A program made the position numbers and the translations under genes. This document shows, in pieces, positions 41,477-48,899 of a DNA stretch of 63,389 bases (positions are counted from its first letter, which is position 1; each line of letters opens with the position of its first letter). Source of the DNA: a virus; the IMG/VR virus record IMGVR_UViG_3300045921_000040, positions 1-63,389 of that record; one strand, 5' to 3'. Below the pieces are notes generated by a model. The model did no database searches. It was not told the origin of the DNA and saw nothing but the letters and a program-made list of their open reading frames with translations.

Positions 41477-41685
41477 TGAACAGGATTGCTATTGCCGTAA
41501 CCCTTATCGGGCTTGGTCTGACCCTTCTCGTACAGACTGTGCCAACCGCTGCACAGCAGCGTGAGTATTACCTCGTAGCGCAGTGGGTTGGCGACTACGG
41601 TCAGCGGTTTTGCAGGTATAGTAACGGCACTGTGCTGAATGTCGGTGTGAATGTGTGCCCGCTCAGCATCAAGGCTTGGATGTGA
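41476..41685 (+). CDS. Small secreted protein, 69 residues
   Basis: An N-terminal signal peptide is apparent: MNRIAIAVTLIGLGLTLLVQ then a likely cut after TAA in VPTAAQQ. The mature part has two Cys (about residues 46 and 61) that could form a disulphide in the periplasm. An early periplasmic phage protein suggests superinfection exclusion or envelope modification (inference). The stop codon overlaps the polymerase ATG. Confidence 0.72.
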   Translation: MNRIAIAVTLIGLGLTLLVQTVPTAAQQREYYLVAQWVGDYGQRFCRYSNGTVLNVGVNVCPLSIKAWM

Positions 41686-42977
41686 TGACAAACCTTATCG
41701 TTTGCGATGCAGAGACCTTTTACGACCGCACGTTCAGTTTATCCAAGCTTACTACGGAAGAATATATCCGCCACGAGCTTTTTGAGACCATCGGTTGGGC
41801 AGTGAAGGTCAATGACGAGCCTGCACAGTGGTTCTCAGGGCCGAAGCGTGAAGTCAAGCAGTGGCTAGACCAGTTCCCGTGGGGTGACAGCATCGCTGTG
41901 GCGCACAATGCCGCATTCGATATGGCTATCCTTAACTGGCACTTCGATATCCGTCCCAAGAGGATTGCAGATACCCTCTCCATGCTGCGAGCCATTGACG
42001 GGCCGGATGCAGGTAACAGCCTAGCTAAAGCTGCAGAACGCTATGGGGTGGGAAAGAAGGGCGACGAGGTCGTCAATGCGCTTGGCAAGAGGCGGCTGGA
42101 TTTCACCCCACAAGAGCTTGCTCGGTATGGTGAGTATTGCATCAACGACGTCGAGCTTACCTACAAGCTCTTTGAACATATAGCTCCGCTACTGCCCGCC
42201 AGCGAGCTTCGCCTAATTGACCTTACCATACGTATGTTTACGGAGCCCACTTTGGAGCTGGATAGGGACGTATTGGAAGAGCACCTGACCGAGGTTAGGG
42301 AGAAGAAGCAGAAGCTCATGGATGCGATCACCGCAGATAAGAGCGTGCTCATGTCCAACCCGAAGCTGGCCGAGCTCCTTATGAGCCTCAAGGTGGCGCC
42401 GCCGACAAAGGTTAGCCCAAGAACCGGGAAGACCACATGGGCTTTTGGTAAGACTGATGAGGCGTTTAAAGAGTTGTTGGACCACCCTGACCCTCGGGTG
42501 CAGACTATTGTCGCTGCTCGCATTGGAGTGAAATCGACTCTTCAAGAAACCCGCACGGAACGGTTTATTTCCATCGCCAATCGTGGGACGCTCCCTGTTC
42601 CTTTGCGCTACTATGCTGCACACACAGGGCGCTTTGGGGGTTGCTTAGTTGACGATACCCAGGTTACGGTGTATGACCCATTCTGGGGCGTTTGCAACAA
42701 ACGCATTGTTGATGTGCTGCTAGACGACCTTGTGTGGGACGGAGAAGAGTTCGTTTCGCACGATGGTGTAGTTTTTAGCGGGTTTGCAGAAGTCATTGAG
42801 TGGGATGGCGTAAAAGGGACCGAAGACCATGTCGTATTCACGGACGCCGGAGAGATGTCGCTACGAGAGGCAATGCAGGGAAATCACCGCATCAAAACTG
42901 GTGGCGACATTTCCGAAGACGCTGTGGACGCCGCTAGAAAGTTGCTACGTAACTACAAAAACCAAGATAAAGTGTAA
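41685..42977 (+). CDS. DNA polymerase I (PolA), N-extein with N-part of intein 1, 430 residues
   Basis: ATG 41685. The 3'-5' exonuclease domain shows CDAETFYD (Exo I), HNAAFDMAILNW (Exo II) and YCINDVELTYKL (Exo III). The thumb follows, then YYAAHTGRFGG, just before motif A. After that Gly, Cys at 42642 starts an intein: CLVDDTQVTV (block A) and KGTEDHVVFT (block B), 111 residues to the TAA at 42977. The rest of the polymerase is encoded separately from 43580. Frame differs from the following HNH and C-terminal reading frames. Confidence 0.9.
   Translation: MTNLIVCDAETFYDRTFSLSKLTTEEYIRHELFETIGWAVKVNDEPAQWFSGPKREVKQWLDQFPWGDSIAVAHNAAFDMAILNWHFDIRPKRIADTLSMLRAIDGPDAGNSLAKAAERYGVGKKGDEVVNALGKRRLDFTPQELARYGEYCINDVELTYKLFEHIAPLLPASELRLIDLTIRMFTEPTLELDRDVLEEHLTEVREKKQKLMDAITADKSVLMSNPKLAELLMSLKVAPPTKVSPRTGKTTWAFGKTDEAFKELLDHPDPRVQTIVAARIGVKSTLQETRTERFISIANRGTLPVPLRYYAAHTGRFGGCLVDDTQVTVYDPFWGVCNKRIVDVLLDDLVWDGEEFVSHDGVVFSGFAEVIEWDGVKGTEDHVVFTDAGEMSLREAMQGNHRIKTGGDISEDAVDAARKLLRNYKNQDKV
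42642..42974 (+). other. Intein 1, N-terminal splicing part
   Basis: Begins with nucleophile Cys after FGG and has typical N-terminal motifs (CLVDDTQVTV, GTEDHVVFTDAGE). It ends at a stop right where an HNH zinc finger begins in another frame. Length (111 residues) is like that of natural split-intein N parts. Its partner is at 43580-43657. Confidence 0.85.
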
Positions 42978-43599
42978 ATGTCAATGCGGCGCAGAGAAAG
43001 AGATTAGGGTAAAAGATATACTTAGCGGAAGAAGTAAGTCGTGCCGGTCTTGTGCGTTTCGCCTAAGAGCCGCAAAAATGCCTAAGGCCGAAAGGGTAGC
43101 TAGAGCTAAAAAAGCTTCTACCGCCGCCGCTGCAGCGCTTGCTGCTAGGATGGTCAATCACCCATATAGGTTGAAGTATGGCGATGCGTACGATTATTTG
43201 CTGGAATTAGCTTCCAGCGCAAAGAGCAGATGCTGTAACCCTAACCATAACGCATATGTTAATTATGGGGCACGGGGTGTAACTTTTGGGTTCCCATCTG
43301 TAAGCGCTTTCGCCGAATGGGTATTGGATAATATAGGCCCAAAGTCGGATGCTTCGTACTCTATAGATCGTATAGACAACAACAGAGGCTACGAGCCCGG
43401 TAATCTACGGTGGGCAACTCGTCTTGAGCAAGCGCGCAACAGAAGGGCTTACAAAAGAACCAAAAATGGAGAACGTATACGTTATCTAAAAGACCTACGG
43501 CCAGACTTAACATACGAAACAATCCGCATATGGATTGCTAAGGGCATGGACGACGAAGAAATACTTGGGAGAAAAAAGTATGCTCGTTCCAGTATATGA
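42829..43599 (+). CDS. HNH homing endonuclease inside intein 1, 256 residues (start uncertain)
   Basis: The recognisable part starts near 42955: zinc finger KCKCQCGAEKEIRVKDILSG with a second CxxC (SCRSC). The HNH core YSIDRIDNNRGYEPGNLRWA lies near residue 180. No good start is near the finger; ATG 42829 lies within the intein coding region, and its first 45 codons are probably out-of-frame noise. It ends with TGA at 43597 inside the C-part gene. One base fewer in the A5 run at 42957 would fuse it to the N-intein; one fewer in the A6 run at 43572 would fuse it to the C-intein. Confidence 0.75.
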   Translation: MSYSRTPERCRYERQCREITASKLVATFPKTLWTPLESCYVTTKTKIKCKCQCGAEKEIRVKDILSGRSKSCRSCAFRLRAAKMPKAERVARAKKASTAAAAALAARMVNHPYRLKYGDAYDYLLELASSAKSRCCNPNHNAYVNYGARGVTFGFPSVSAFAEWVLDNIGPKSDASYSIDRIDNNRGYEPGNLRWATRLEQARNRRAYKRTKNGERIRYLKDLRPDLTYETIRIWIAKGMDDEEILGRKKYARSSI

Positions 43600-43657
43600 C
43601 ATTAGGAATTGTGGGCCTAGACGTAGGTTTGTGGCCAATGGAAAGTTAGTACACAAT
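43580..43657 (+). other. Intein 1, C-terminal splicing part
   Basis: Block F/G motifs VYDIRNCG ... RFVANGKLVHN, final Asn at 43655-43657, +1 residue Ser (TCA) resuming polymerase at SESINLQNLPR. 26 residues is short for a split C-intein (usually 35 or more). Confidence 0.82.
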
Positions 43658-45352
43658 TCAGAGTCCATTAACCTTCAAAACCTTCCTCGCAAAAGTCCGT
43701 TAAGGAAAGCCATCAAGGCCCCGGAAGGCTACGTAATTATTGACTGTGACTCCTCGCAGATTGAAGCGCGCACCCTTGCGTGGCTGGCTGAACAGAATGA
43801 CCTTGTTGAAGCCTTTGGTCGTGGAGATGACGTTTACAAGATTATGGCTTCGGCCATATACGACGTGCCAGTCGAGGAAGTAACCGCTGAACAACGGTTT
43901 GTAGGAAAAACAACAATTCTTGGTTGTCTTGCCGAGGGAACTTTGGTATTAACCGATAGAGGTTGGGTAGCAATTGAACACGTTACCCTCGATGACCGTC
44001 TTTGGGATGGGGAAGAGTGGGTATGCCATCAAGGATTAGTGAAGAAAGGCATCAAAGAAACATTGAATCTTTGCGGGCTTTGGTTGACGCCAGATCACAA
44101 AATATTGTGCGGGACGCAGTGGTTGGAGGCGCAATCAGTGGTGCAAGACAGCGCTACCCTCTCCCTAGCATTGGACACCGGAGCGGTAACTTGGTTGTCA
44201 CCGGATATGTTAAAGGGCCACGTGGAGGTGTGGCCTCGCTTATCGTGCAGTGCGATTGCGGACGCCCTGAGTACACCGTTGACCGCCACAACTTTAAGGA
44301 CTTCAAAAGCACACGTTGCCCCCTCTGCGGCAGGCGGGAAGGCCACCGCAAGCGGTATTGGAATTACATCTCTGCACTCCCCGACGAGCAGCACAGGGTG
44401 CGACTCCTTAACCGGCTTTCCGCCGCAATCAATCGGTGTCACGTCCCCAGTAGCAGGGCGTACGCCGACTACGGGGGTAGAGGTATTACTGTACACAAAC
44501 AGTGGTGAGAAGACCGGGCGGCTTTCCTCAGGTACGTCCAGACGGTGCCCGGATGGGATGACCCAAACCTCGAAATGGACCGCGAGGACAACGACCGAGG
44601 ATACGAACCCGGCAACATCAGGTTTGTCACACGCGCCGTCAACCATGCAAATAAGAGAAAAGTTAAAATCCTTCAGACGGAACTTGATGACCTACGACAT
44701 CGCCTACGCAGGGCCGAGGAACAGATACACAGTTGCGACAAATGCCGGGCCAATTATCGTACATAATTGCGGTTATGGCATGGGGGCGGAAAGGTTCCAG
44801 ACACAACTGAAAGCCTTTGGTGTAAACCTTTCATTAGAAGAATGCCGCCACATTATTCGTACATACCGGCAAACCTATCCACAAATTGTCAAGCTATGGT
44901 CTAACGCTGACCGCGCATTAGATGCTCTGCGCTCACAACGCACTTGTGAGCTTGGGCGTGAAGGGGTGCTACAATTAGACCTGTTCGGTATAAAGCTACC
45001 CAACGGTATGTACCTACGCTATAACAACTTGCGTGTTGACAATGACGGCGAACTTGTTTATGATACAAAGCAAGGGAAGAGCGTTGTACCTACGAAAATA
45101 TACGGGGGGAAATCTGTTGAGAATATTACCCAAGCCTTAGCCCGCATAATCATAGCCGAGCAAATGCTGATGATATCGCGCAGGCTGCGCGTGGTTCTGA
45201 CTGTGCACGACAGCGTTGTAGCTTTGGCTCCTGAGGAGCAAGCTGGAGAGGCTAGGGCATTTGTAGAGCAGTGTATGCGAACACGCCCAAAGTGGGCACC
45301 AGGGTTGCCGTTGGGTTGCGAAAGTAAGGTGGGAGTGTGCTATGGAGGATAA
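43580..45352 (+). CDS. PolA C-part: C-intein 1, polymerase palm/fingers, intein 2, 590 residues
   Basis: ATG 43580 with GGGAG upstream. The first 26 residues are a C-intein (VPVYDIRNCG, FVANGKLVHN) ending before Ser. Then polymerase motif A IIDCDSSQIEAR and the O-helix start QRFVGKTTILG, split by intein 2 (43925-44767), then CGYGMGAERFQTQL and motif C VLTVHDSVV. Together with the N-part this is a full PolA-family phage replicase. A working enzyme requires trans-splicing of intein 1 (or frameshifting) and cis-splicing of intein 2. Confidence 0.87.
   Translation: MLVPVYDIRNCGPRRRFVANGKLVHNSESINLQNLPRKSPLRKAIKAPEGYVIIDCDSSQIEARTLAWLAEQNDLVEAFGRGDDVYKIMASAIYDVPVEEVTAEQRFVGKTTILGCLAEGTLVLTDRGWVAIEHVTLDDRLWDGEEWVCHQGLVKKGIKETLNLCGLWLTPDHKILCGTQWLEAQSVVQDSATLSLALDTGAVTWLSPDMLKGHVEVWPRLSCSAIADALSTPLTATTLRTSKAHVAPSAAGGKATASGIGITSLHSPTSSTGCDSLTGFPPQSIGVTSPVAGRTPTTGVEVLLYTNSGEKTGRLSSGTSRRCPDGMTQTSKWTARTTTEDTNPATSGLSHAPSTMQIREKLKSFRRNLMTYDIAYAGPRNRYTVATNAGPIIVHNCGYGMGAERFQTQLKAFGVNLSLEECRHIIRTYRQTYPQIVKLWSNADRALDALRSQRTCELGREGVLQLDLFGIKLPNGMYLRYNNLRVDNDGELVYDTKQGKSVVPTKIYGGKSVENITQALARIIIAEQMLMISRRLRVVLTVHDSVVALAPEEQAGEARAFVEQCMRTRPKWAPGLPLGCESKVGVCYGG
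43925..44767 (+). other. Intein 2, in polymerase motif B
   Basis: 281 residues in frame with the polymerase. It starts at Cys (CLAEGTLVLTDRGWVAIEHV), block B LWLTPDHKIL, and ends TYDIAYAGPRNRYT and IIVHN before Cys of CGYGMG. Extein junction ILG/CGYGMG is the conserved O-helix site. Residues about 75-245 are Ser/Thr/Ala-rich, low complexity, and read as an out-of-frame image of the HNH gene at 44023. Confidence 0.88.
44023..44766 (+). pseudogene. HNH endonuclease overprinted in intein 2, one internal TGA
   Basis: In the frame offset from the intein, ATG 44023 (MPSRISEERHQRNIESLRAL, GGAAGAG upstream) opens a protein with zinc finger VQCDCGRPEYT ... CPLCGR, HNH start YADYGGRGITVHKQW, then TGA at 44506-44508. 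The same frame continues EDRAAFLRYVQTVPGW and LEMDREDNDRGYEPGNIRFV to a stop at 44764. The core matches the intein-1 HNH. The TGA splits the active domain, so it is either decaying, read through, or a base error. The intein frame stays open across all of it. Confidence 0.8.
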
Positions 45353-46425: not shown

Positions 46426-47088
46426 ATGACTCCGTGGAGCTACTCCTCGATAAAGACCTTCGAGCAATGCCCGAAGAAGTACTACCACCTTAGGGTAGCC
46501 AAGGATGTTGAGGATGAGCCGGGTGAGGCGGCGGAATATGGCACCGCCGTCCACCTCGCCGCCGAGGAGTTCATCCGTGATGGGAAACCCATCCCTGAGA
46601 AGTTCGCATTCATCCGCCCTGTAGTGGAGCAGCTGTCAGCACTGCCGGGGGAGAAGTATCCTGAGCTCAAACTGGGTATGCGTGAGGACGGCACACCCTG
46701 TGGTTTCTCCGACGAAGCTGTGTGGTGGAGGGGTATCGCTGACTTGCTGGTTATCGACGGTCAGCGCGCATGGTGCGTGGACTACAAGACGGGCAAAAGC
46801 GCTCGTTACGCTGATACCAAGCAGCTAGACCTGCTGGCTTCGGCTGTGTTCGCACATTACCCACAAGTGGATAAAGTCAAGTCCGCCTTGGTTTTCGTGG
46901 TTAGCGGCGAGCTTGTGACGAAGACCCACAGAGCTTCCGAGCGCAGCACCTATATGTCCGTGTTCGACGAGCAGTTGGACCAGTTGGAAGCAGCCATGGA
47001 CAGCGGCATATTCAATCCGAAGGCTAGTGGTTTGTGTTCATACTGCCCTGTGGTAGACTGCGCACATTGGAAACCTAGGAGGCGATAA
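46426..47088 (+). CDS. Cas4/RecB-like PD-(D/E)XK exonuclease, 220 residues
   Basis: WSYSSIKTFEQCPKKYYHLR at the N-terminus is the usual start of this family. A conserved His lies in GTAVHLAAEEFI. Catalytic GIADLLVID and AWCVDYKTGK give the Asp, Asp and Lys. C-terminal CSYCPVVDC together with the first Cys can hold a 4Fe-4S cluster, as in Cas4. Role in replication or recombination of phage DNA. Between DUF6378 and HNH-like genes, coupled at both ends. Confidence 0.9.
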   Translation: MTPWSYSSIKTFEQCPKKYYHLRVAKDVEDEPGEAAEYGTAVHLAAEEFIRDGKPIPEKFAFIRPVVEQLSALPGEKYPELKLGMREDGTPCGFSDEAVWWRGIADLLVIDGQRAWCVDYKTGKSARYADTKQLDLLASAVFAHYPQVDKVKSALVFVVSGELVTKTHRASERSTYMSVFDEQLDQLEAAMDSGIFNPKASGLCSYCPVVDCAHWKPRRR

Positions 47089-47336
47089 TGGCCAGAGACT
47101 ATCGGTCGGAGTACGCTAACTACCAAGGCAAGCCTGAGCAGAAGAAGAAGCGCGCCATGCGCAATGCGGCCCGTGCCAAGCTGATGCGTGAAGGCAAGGT
47201 TAAGAAGGGTGACGGAATGGACGTTGACCACGTGAAGCCACTCAGCAAGGGCGGCACTAACACTGATGGGTTGAGGGTAAAGCCCAAGTCCAAGAACCGG
47301 TCGTTCAAGCGCACAAGCAGTGGTGCTATGAAGTAA
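47088..47336 (+). CDS. Small HNH-like protein, 82 residues
   Basis: ATG 47088 (TAATG overlap). Basic N-terminus, then KGDGMDVDHVKPLSKGGTNT with DH followed by a KGG ... N pattern typical of HNH folds. The last part is NRSFKRTSS. The usual CxxC zinc knuckles are absent. Small proteins of this type are frequent in phages; nicking activity has not been established. Confidence 0.78.
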   Translation: MARDYRSEYANYQGKPEQKKKRAMRNAARAKLMREGKVKKGDGMDVDHVKPLSKGGTNTDGLRVKPKSKNRSFKRTSSGAMK

Positions 47337-47354
47337 GAGACCCGAGGGGCAAAC

Positions 47355-48899
47355 GTGCAGATCATTGACAACAAGGCGCTCCTACTGGAGCTGGAAGACC
47401 CGTCGCACGTAACGCATGCCGTGAAGAAGAGCATGATAGTAGATGGCGGTAACGGTGTATTGGTGCATTGGGGACACAAGGAAGCCGAAGCGCTCGCTAA
47501 CTTCAGACTAGATGTGCCTTCCCCCATCCTGCGTGACTATAAGTGGACCGGGAAGTTTACTCCTTTCGAGCACCAGAAGAAGACCGCCTCATTTCTGTCT
47601 ATTCGTAGGCGCGCCTTTTGTTTTAACGAGCAAGGGCTTGGGAAAACGGCCAGTGTCATATGGGCAGCCGACTACCTGATGAAGTTAGGGCTGGTTAAGC
47701 GTGTACTTGTGCTGTGCCCGCTTTCCATCATGAATGCCGCTTGGCAGAAAGACCTATTCACCTTTGCCATGCATCGCTCATGCGGAGTAGCTTATGGCAC
47801 TCTTGCACAGCGGAAGAAGGTTATTGCCACCGGCGCTGAGTTCATTATCCTGAACTACGACGGCCTTAACGTAGTCAAGAATGAAATCGTCGCTGGCGGT
47901 TTTGACTTGATTGTCGTCGATGAGGCCAATGCCTACAAGAACGCGCAGACCAAACGCTGGAAAGTGCTCAACCAGATAATCAAAGTTACAGACCCGCGTT
48001 TGTGGATGCTGACTGGCACTCCTGCAGCGCAGTCTCCCGTAGATGCTTACGGTCTGGCGAAGCTTGTCAACCCCGAAGGTTGCCCACGATTTTTCACCGA
48101 GTTCAAGACTGCGGTTATGACCAAGGTTACGACATTCAAGTGGGTACCTAAGTCAAGCGCCTCTGCGTATGTGCACAAAATATTGCAGCCTGCAATTCGG
48201 TTCGAGAAGAAGGATTGTCTCGACCTGCCTGAGGTTACCTACACCGAGCGTGAAGCGCCGCTTACCCCGCAACAGATGAAATATTACAAGCTGCTCAAGG
48301 ACGAGATGCTTATGGAAGTAGCAGGGGAGGAAGTCAGCGCAGTCAATGCCGCCGCCAAGATAAACAAGCTCCTGCAGATTAGCGGAGGTGCAGTCTATAC
48401 GGACACCGGAGAGGTGCTGCAGTTCGACATCAGCAACAGGCTTAATGTCGTATTGGAGGCAATAGAAGAGACTAGCAATAAGGTGCTGGTGTTTGTCCCC
48501 TTCACCCATACCATCGAGCTTCTGCAGGCGAGGCTGGAGAAGGAAGGTATCAGTTGCGGCATCATCAATGGAGCAGTGCCAGCCAACAAGCGCGGCGACA
48601 TTGTGCATAGGTTCCAAACAGCTAAAGACCCTCACGTGCTGTTGATACAGCCTCAGGCTGCCAGCCATGGGCTTACTCTGACAGCTGCGGATACGATTAT
48701 CTGGTATGCGCCGGTAACCTCGGTGGAGACCTACCTACAGGCGAATGCGCGTATCGACCGTCCGGGGCAGAAGAACGCCATGACCATCGTGCATATCAAA
48801 GGTAGTCCAGTGGAGGCGAAGCTGTATAAGATGCTACAGGACAATATCGGCAACCACAACAAGTTGATTGACCTCTATCGAGAGGTGCTCGACGAATAG
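47355..48899 (+). CDS. SNF2/DEAD-type helicase, 514 residues
   Basis: GTG start at 47355. HQKKTASFL (Q-like motif), Walker A FNEQGLGKTASV near residue 92, motif Ia VLCPLSIMNAAW, motif II VVDEANAYKN (DEAN instead of DEAH), motif III LTGTPAAQ, motif V QAASHGLTLTAADTIIW, motif VI NARIDRPGQK. This is the SNF2-like branch of superfamily 2 helicases often found in phage replication modules. The start follows a GAGGGGC leader. Confidence 0.9.
   Translation: MQIIDNKALLLELEDPSHVTHAVKKSMIVDGGNGVLVHWGHKEAEALANFRLDVPSPILRDYKWTGKFTPFEHQKKTASFLSIRRRAFCFNEQGLGKTASVIWAADYLMKLGLVKRVLVLCPLSIMNAAWQKDLFTFAMHRSCGVAYGTLAQRKKVIATGAEFIILNYDGLNVVKNEIVAGGFDLIVVDEANAYKNAQTKRWKVLNQIIKVTDPRLWMLTGTPAAQSPVDAYGLAKLVNPEGCPRFFTEFKTAVMTKVTTFKWVPKSSASAYVHKILQPAIRFEKKDCLDLPEVTYTEREAPLTPQQMKYYKLLKDEMLMEVAGEEVSAVNAAAKINKLLQISGGAVYTDTGEVLQFDISNRLNVVLEAIEETSNKVLVFVPFTHTIELLQARLEKEGISCGIINGAVPANKRGDIVHRFQTAKDPHVLLIQPQAASHGLTLTAADTIIWYAPVTSVETYLQANARIDRPGQKNAMTIVHIKGSPVEAKLYKMLQDNIGNHNKLIDLYREVLDE

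Follow-up and report, generated by a model that had tools for sequence, protein, structure and literature searches.

The family A DNA polymerase gene (polA) of a viral contig, IMG/VR record IMGVR_UViG_3300045921_000040, analysed here over its full 63,389 bases (the window), is interrupted twice, by elements that are referred to below as intein 1 and intein 2. Judging from sequence comparison, intein 1 is very probably a naturally split, trans-splicing intein, that is, one that fractures its host gene, with an HNH endonuclease gene overlapping both of its halves. The gene is laid out over three reading frames (0 for the N half, 1 for the HNH, 2 for the C half) and comprises the following features.

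41685..42641, + strand: N-extein of the family A DNA polymerase, frame 0, covering the 3'-5' exonuclease domain and the first part of the polymerase domain (PF01612, E 3e-7; PHROG DNA polymerase)
42642..42977, + strand: N-intein 1, 111 residues, frame 0, closed by the stop codon TAA at 42975-42977
42829..43599, + strand: HNH endonuclease open reading frame (ORF), frame 1, from ATG 42829 to TGA 43597-43599 (PHROG HNH families, E 8e-34 and 1e-27)
43567..43571, + strand: GGGAG, Shine-Dalgarno-like site of the C part
43580..43657, + strand: C-intein 1, 26 residues, MLVPVYDI...LVHN, with its own ATG, frame 2
43658..43924, + strand: middle extein, SESINLQN...TTILG, polymerase domain (PF00476)
44768..45352, + strand: C-extein of the DNA polymerase (PF00476)

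Intein 1 occupies 42642-43657 (1016 nt). The frame 0 ORF encodes the N-extein and N-intein (41685-42974, then TAA), the frame 2 ORF encodes the C-intein and C-exteins (43580-45352), and the HNH ORF shares 149 nt with the N half and 20 nt with the C half. A first-pass annotation of the window had already described the break over three frames, the TAA ending at 42977, the GGGAG and ATG of the C part, the short C-intein and the runs of A at both frame changes (A5 at 42957-42961, A6 at 43572-43577), all of which were found as it described them. It had also noted one HNH, correctly, while missing that this overlaps both intein halves and that a second HNH is hidden in intein 2. It left a choice between a split intein or fractured gene and a frameshifted or mis-sequenced one, and the comparison with related polA genes that it suggested upholds the former and not the latter.

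Relatives were gathered from IMG/VR using three queries, the C part, the HNH and the N-intein. Sixteen distinct intein 1 elements were compared base by base, and a wider set held 34 aligned sequences (32 of them different, the window counted) with an intein at the intein 1 site of polA, among which polymerase identity falls as low as 38%. All 34 are split; 29 have the frames 0/+1/+2, and in the other five (L150, L152, L156, L159 and L160) the two halves share a frame and are closed by stops. Every one of the 16 elements has a length of 2 mod 3, an N-frame stop 315-336 nt into the element, a C half in frame +2 and a C-intein whose opening ATG follows a Shine-Dalgarno-like stretch rich in purines. 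An HNH is present in 15 of them, always in frame +1, the exception being L102. The nearest relative, L083/L003, is 61-88% identical to the window element, depending on the part, and matches it in its three frames and in its length of 1016 nt.

The position of both frame changes at A-runs in the window would suit a sequencing error in a gene with one true open frame, or a decaying pseudogene. However, the A-runs are not conserved: at the corresponding places L083/L003 reads CACCAAACAT and GGAAGGGAAAAGT, with no A5 and only A4, and the layout is kept in divergent contigs that lack the runs. Since dozens of related viruses share it, sequencing error was rejected. Selection is, moreover, evident in each frame. 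Because pairwise dS was saturated, the codon-position periodicity of substitutions was used in its place, within groups of elements of equal length (1010 and 1016 nt; a 1013-nt group, which contains L092 with its indel, has weaker periodicity and no weight was placed on it). In the N-intein substitutions peak at offset 2 mod 3 (64-69%), corresponding to third positions of frame 0; in the stretch that encodes the HNH only they peak at offset 0 (52-56%), the third positions of frame 1; and in the C-intein the peak is at offset 1 (72-74%), the third positions of frame 2. As all 16 elements keep the length, the N-stop and the C-intein ATG, and the periodicity changes frame segment by segment, the layout is beyond chance, and an error or pseudogene is highly improbable.

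A second way to account for the frames is a pair of programmed +1 ribosomal frameshifts, from the N half into the HNH and from the HNH into the C half, giving one polymerase-intein-HNH chain that splices in cis. The frames do step +1 and then +1, and the overlap of the HNH frame with both halves makes the shifts geometrically possible. This is difficult to reconcile with the variable A-runs and with the invariable start site of the C half. Mean anti-Shine-Dalgarno energy at the C-part ATGs is -6.4 kcal/mol, against -3.1 kcal/mol at 742 other nearby ATGs (p 7e-7). In L160, where both halves are in one frame, a stop codon stands immediately ahead of the C-part ATG, and in L086 the C frame is open for only 12 nt upstream of it, so that the C part needs independent initiation. 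L102 (L102:5001-5407, an element of 407 nt) has lost the HNH and still keeps the N-stop, the Shine-Dalgarno-like site, the ATG and two different frames; it follows that they are there for the C half rather than for the HNH. Frameshifting is thus distinctly improbable.

The splicing motifs are intact throughout. Cys1, GTxxH and the C-terminal HN are kept in 34/34 site-1 sequences, the +1 residue is Ser wherever the junction was matched, and the intein parts are conserved as much as or more than the extein. It is conceivable that polA is simply a gene in pieces, the two polypeptides of which assemble non-covalently and are never spliced, and separate ORFs with separate starts would be in keeping with this. 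There is a precedent in a phage ribonucleotide reductase that is split by an endonuclease and whose pieces are described as folding together non-covalently (Friedrich 2007, as cited in PMC10448857). The invariance of the splicing residues argues against such an arrangement here, as does the conservation of the intein parts, which would be unexpected once splicing had been lost, and we regard it as improbable. A self-splicing RNA intron carrying the HNH gene was also considered, phage group I introns being common carriers of such genes, and was rejected as scarcely conceivable: intein motifs are found at both ends of the element, and Rfam returned no match up to E 1, with no conserved group I intron RNA structure.

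With intein 1 split in this way, two polypeptides would be translated, one comprising the N-extein and N-intein (to 42977) and the other the C-intein and C-extein (from ATG 43580, behind GGGAG), and it is likely that a single message carries, in order, the N part, the overlapping HNH and the overlapping C part. The halves of intein 1 would associate and trans-splice, joining ...GRFGG to SESINLQN, and intein 2 would splice in cis out of the C polypeptide to give an active polymerase. With each half made as a polypeptide of its own, there is no need for an open polymerase frame across the HNH. The latter would be initiated independently at ATG 42829, at an offset (187) where the start codon is conserved in the set (L092 has lost it and gained an ATG one codon later), and may be a homing endonuclease, one that would spread the entire element by cutting polA alleles free of the intein. 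In one set of relatives the majority lack intein 1, as would be expected if it is mobile. Beyond its PHROG matches, the HNH gave no Pfam or NCBIfam match; its residues about 111-213 align weakly to I-HmuI, Cas8-HNH and Gme HNH (VIA-align, Z 2-3), a Foldseek search with its model found no significant match, and PDB sequence searches with HNH and N-intein profiles found none.

Several observations weigh against a trans-splicing intein. The C-intein, at 26 residues, is shorter than the 35-40 typical of natural split inteins (PMC12707363). The Shine-Dalgarno-like site and ATG of the C part are, other than in L102, L089 and L092, partly fixed by codons of the HNH (RKKYA). Every site-1 example comes from a metagenome; cultured phages gave no close match to intein 1, and among genome contigs no relative of the N-intein was confirmed.

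Some variation is seen around site 1. In L162, one of the 34, the insertion point lies two residues upstream, and at this neighbouring position the inteins of L165 and L166 look contiguous, with no stop within the 1500 nt read and the C end not located. A split PolA intein near site 1 in L161 (L161:5255-6172; also in L163 and L167) has a nested GIY-YIG endonuclease and not an HNH (PF01541, E 1.4e-5 in L161); no report of such an arrangement was found among the literature matched, in a check that was not thorough. L131:4233-5595 encodes an N-extein and N-intein; the next 1.3 kb contains no HNH and no C half, and the latter may be elsewhere in the genome or may have been lost. At L169:5001-6600 the polA site holds a split intein whose two halves have no HNH between them, the C half lying about 540 nt in; a further intein, this one hiding an HNH, comes after it.

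Both architectures, split and open with a hidden HNH, are present in the polA gene of the window, the second of them being that of intein 2.

43925..44767, + strand: intein 2, open throughout in the polymerase frame; splicing blocks lie at either end, and the middle is disordered
44023..44766, + strand: hidden HNH of intein 2, in the -1 frame and broken in the window by TGA 44506-44508
44009..44017, + strand: GGGGAAGAG, Shine-Dalgarno-like site before the hidden HNH start, ATG 44023 (mean anti-Shine-Dalgarno energy -9.2 in relatives)

Intein 2 was compared across 55 representatives (95% clustering), which are related and hence not independent. The polymerase frame has no stops in 55/55, while one alternative frame is packed with them. 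A long out-of-frame HNH ORF (222-289 codons) is found in 54/55, the window being the exception, and lies in frame -1 in 52 and in frame +1 in two (L085 and L106), which are at another site. When synonymous HNH codons were shuffled, with codon usage drawn from these dual-coding sequences themselves, about 155 stops were expected in the polymerase frame of the intein middle over the 55 relatives, where none is observed. Here amino-acid identity is 65% in the HNH frame against 33% in the polymerase frame, and changes are concentrated at polymerase codon position 2, which is the third position of the HNH. In an AlphaFold model of the polymerase-frame protein, residues 1-90 and 249-281 are folded (pLDDT about 80-94) and residues 96-248 are disordered, and the best Foldseek matches of the model are inteins and Hint domains (inteins prob 1.00). 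In the window the hidden HNH carries TGA at 44506-44508, where nine relatives inspected have an Arg codon; this copy is probably dead, or the base an error, unlike the HNH of intein 1, which is intact. Downstream of polA, at 46426-48899, are genes for a PD-(D/E)XK nuclease (PF12705) and a SNF2-type helicase (PF00176, PF00271).

Hidden HNHs are also found in cultured phages. Versions in the -1 frame of polA inteins are present in Salmonella phage Ent1, Vibrio phage 97.13 and Pseudomonas phage MR14, and versions in the +1 frame in Streptococcus phage Javan107, Gardnerella phage AB1, Caulobacter phage GB2A and APSE-7. In Ent1 (L109:3229-4125) the -1 HNH is intact and the intein is annotated as splicing domains only. 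About 160 phage records match this hidden HNH at at least 80% identity, and among the matching records listed the annotation is only polymerase or hypothetical protein.

These open inteins may bear on the origin of the split ones. In a tree of splicing domains the split inteins group with open inteins that hide a +1-frame HNH (100/98), apart from the -1 group, which suggests that fracture came after an overlapping, hidden-HNH state; the tree is midpoint-rooted and built on few columns, and it is from these that the direction from open to split would be read. Keeping an intein frame open across an unrelated gene would be costly, and the gain of a start site at the C-intein would allow the gene to fracture and free both frames. 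Whether HNHs hidden in open inteins form a common, overlooked phage architecture, and the intermediate that gave rise to split inteins, is in our judgement evenly balanced. A small ThyX-like gene of Moraxella phage Mcat21 (L118:2731-3663) has an HNH-free mini-intein, which sits inside the split-intein group of the tree on a long branch.

The intein 1 elements would make up a large and new family of naturally split inteins, housed in a replicative polymerase, and their short C halves of 26 residues could be of use in protein ligation. They also offer a comparative case for the evolution of split inteins. The polA HNHs hidden in the easily grown Jerseyvirus phages would make out-of-frame expression of an endonuclease, and homing, directly testable, and methods for detecting overlapping genes in phages would have to allow for such HNHs.

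Fractured genes with N- and C-inteins in separate ORFs and an endonuclease gene between them were reportedly described by Dassa et al. in 2009 from phage and metagenomic sources, the endonuclease being, it is said, of a Vsr-like family. The polA gene of the window resembles them in being broken at an intein, with its halves on separate ORFs and an endonuclease gene between. It differs in encoding a family A DNA polymerase and in its HNH-type endonuclease, the ORF of which overlaps the coding sequence of both halves; in addition, the layout is followed here over 34 aligned sequences, including an HNH-free derivative. Natural split inteins of phage PolB (Aes, CP21 and LCGC14 PolB) have an N half of about 110-120 residues and are Cys-less (PMC12707363). 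They resemble intein 1 in interrupting a phage polymerase, in being typically split and in their long N half, whereas intein 1 is in PolA, has Cys1 and has a shorter C-intein.

For the hidden HNHs the closest parallel in idea is the ShiLan domain, an out-of-frame HNH insertion in phage methylases that is reported to be neither intein nor intron and not to be spliced out (PMC11855218, 2025). As in intein 2, the HNH frame overlaps an open host frame in phages, but here the hidden HNH lies inside a real intein (intein 2) or over two split halves (intein 1). The same paper cites a preprint on actinobacteriophage inteins of non-canonical architecture (bioRxiv 2025.01.02.630785), which may cover inteins with hidden HNHs. 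The polA intein of the Jerseyvirus Salmonella phage vB_SenS-Ent1 resembles intein 2, its -1 frame hiding an intact HNH, and, unlike intein 1, is contiguous, with splicing domains but no endonuclease annotated. Collectively, split inteins with nested endonuclease genes and out-of-frame HNHs in phage methylases (PMC11855218) were known, while the PolA split-intein family with its HNH placed over both halves, the breadth of this family, the HNH-free derivative and the occurrence of two architectures in one gene appear to be new.
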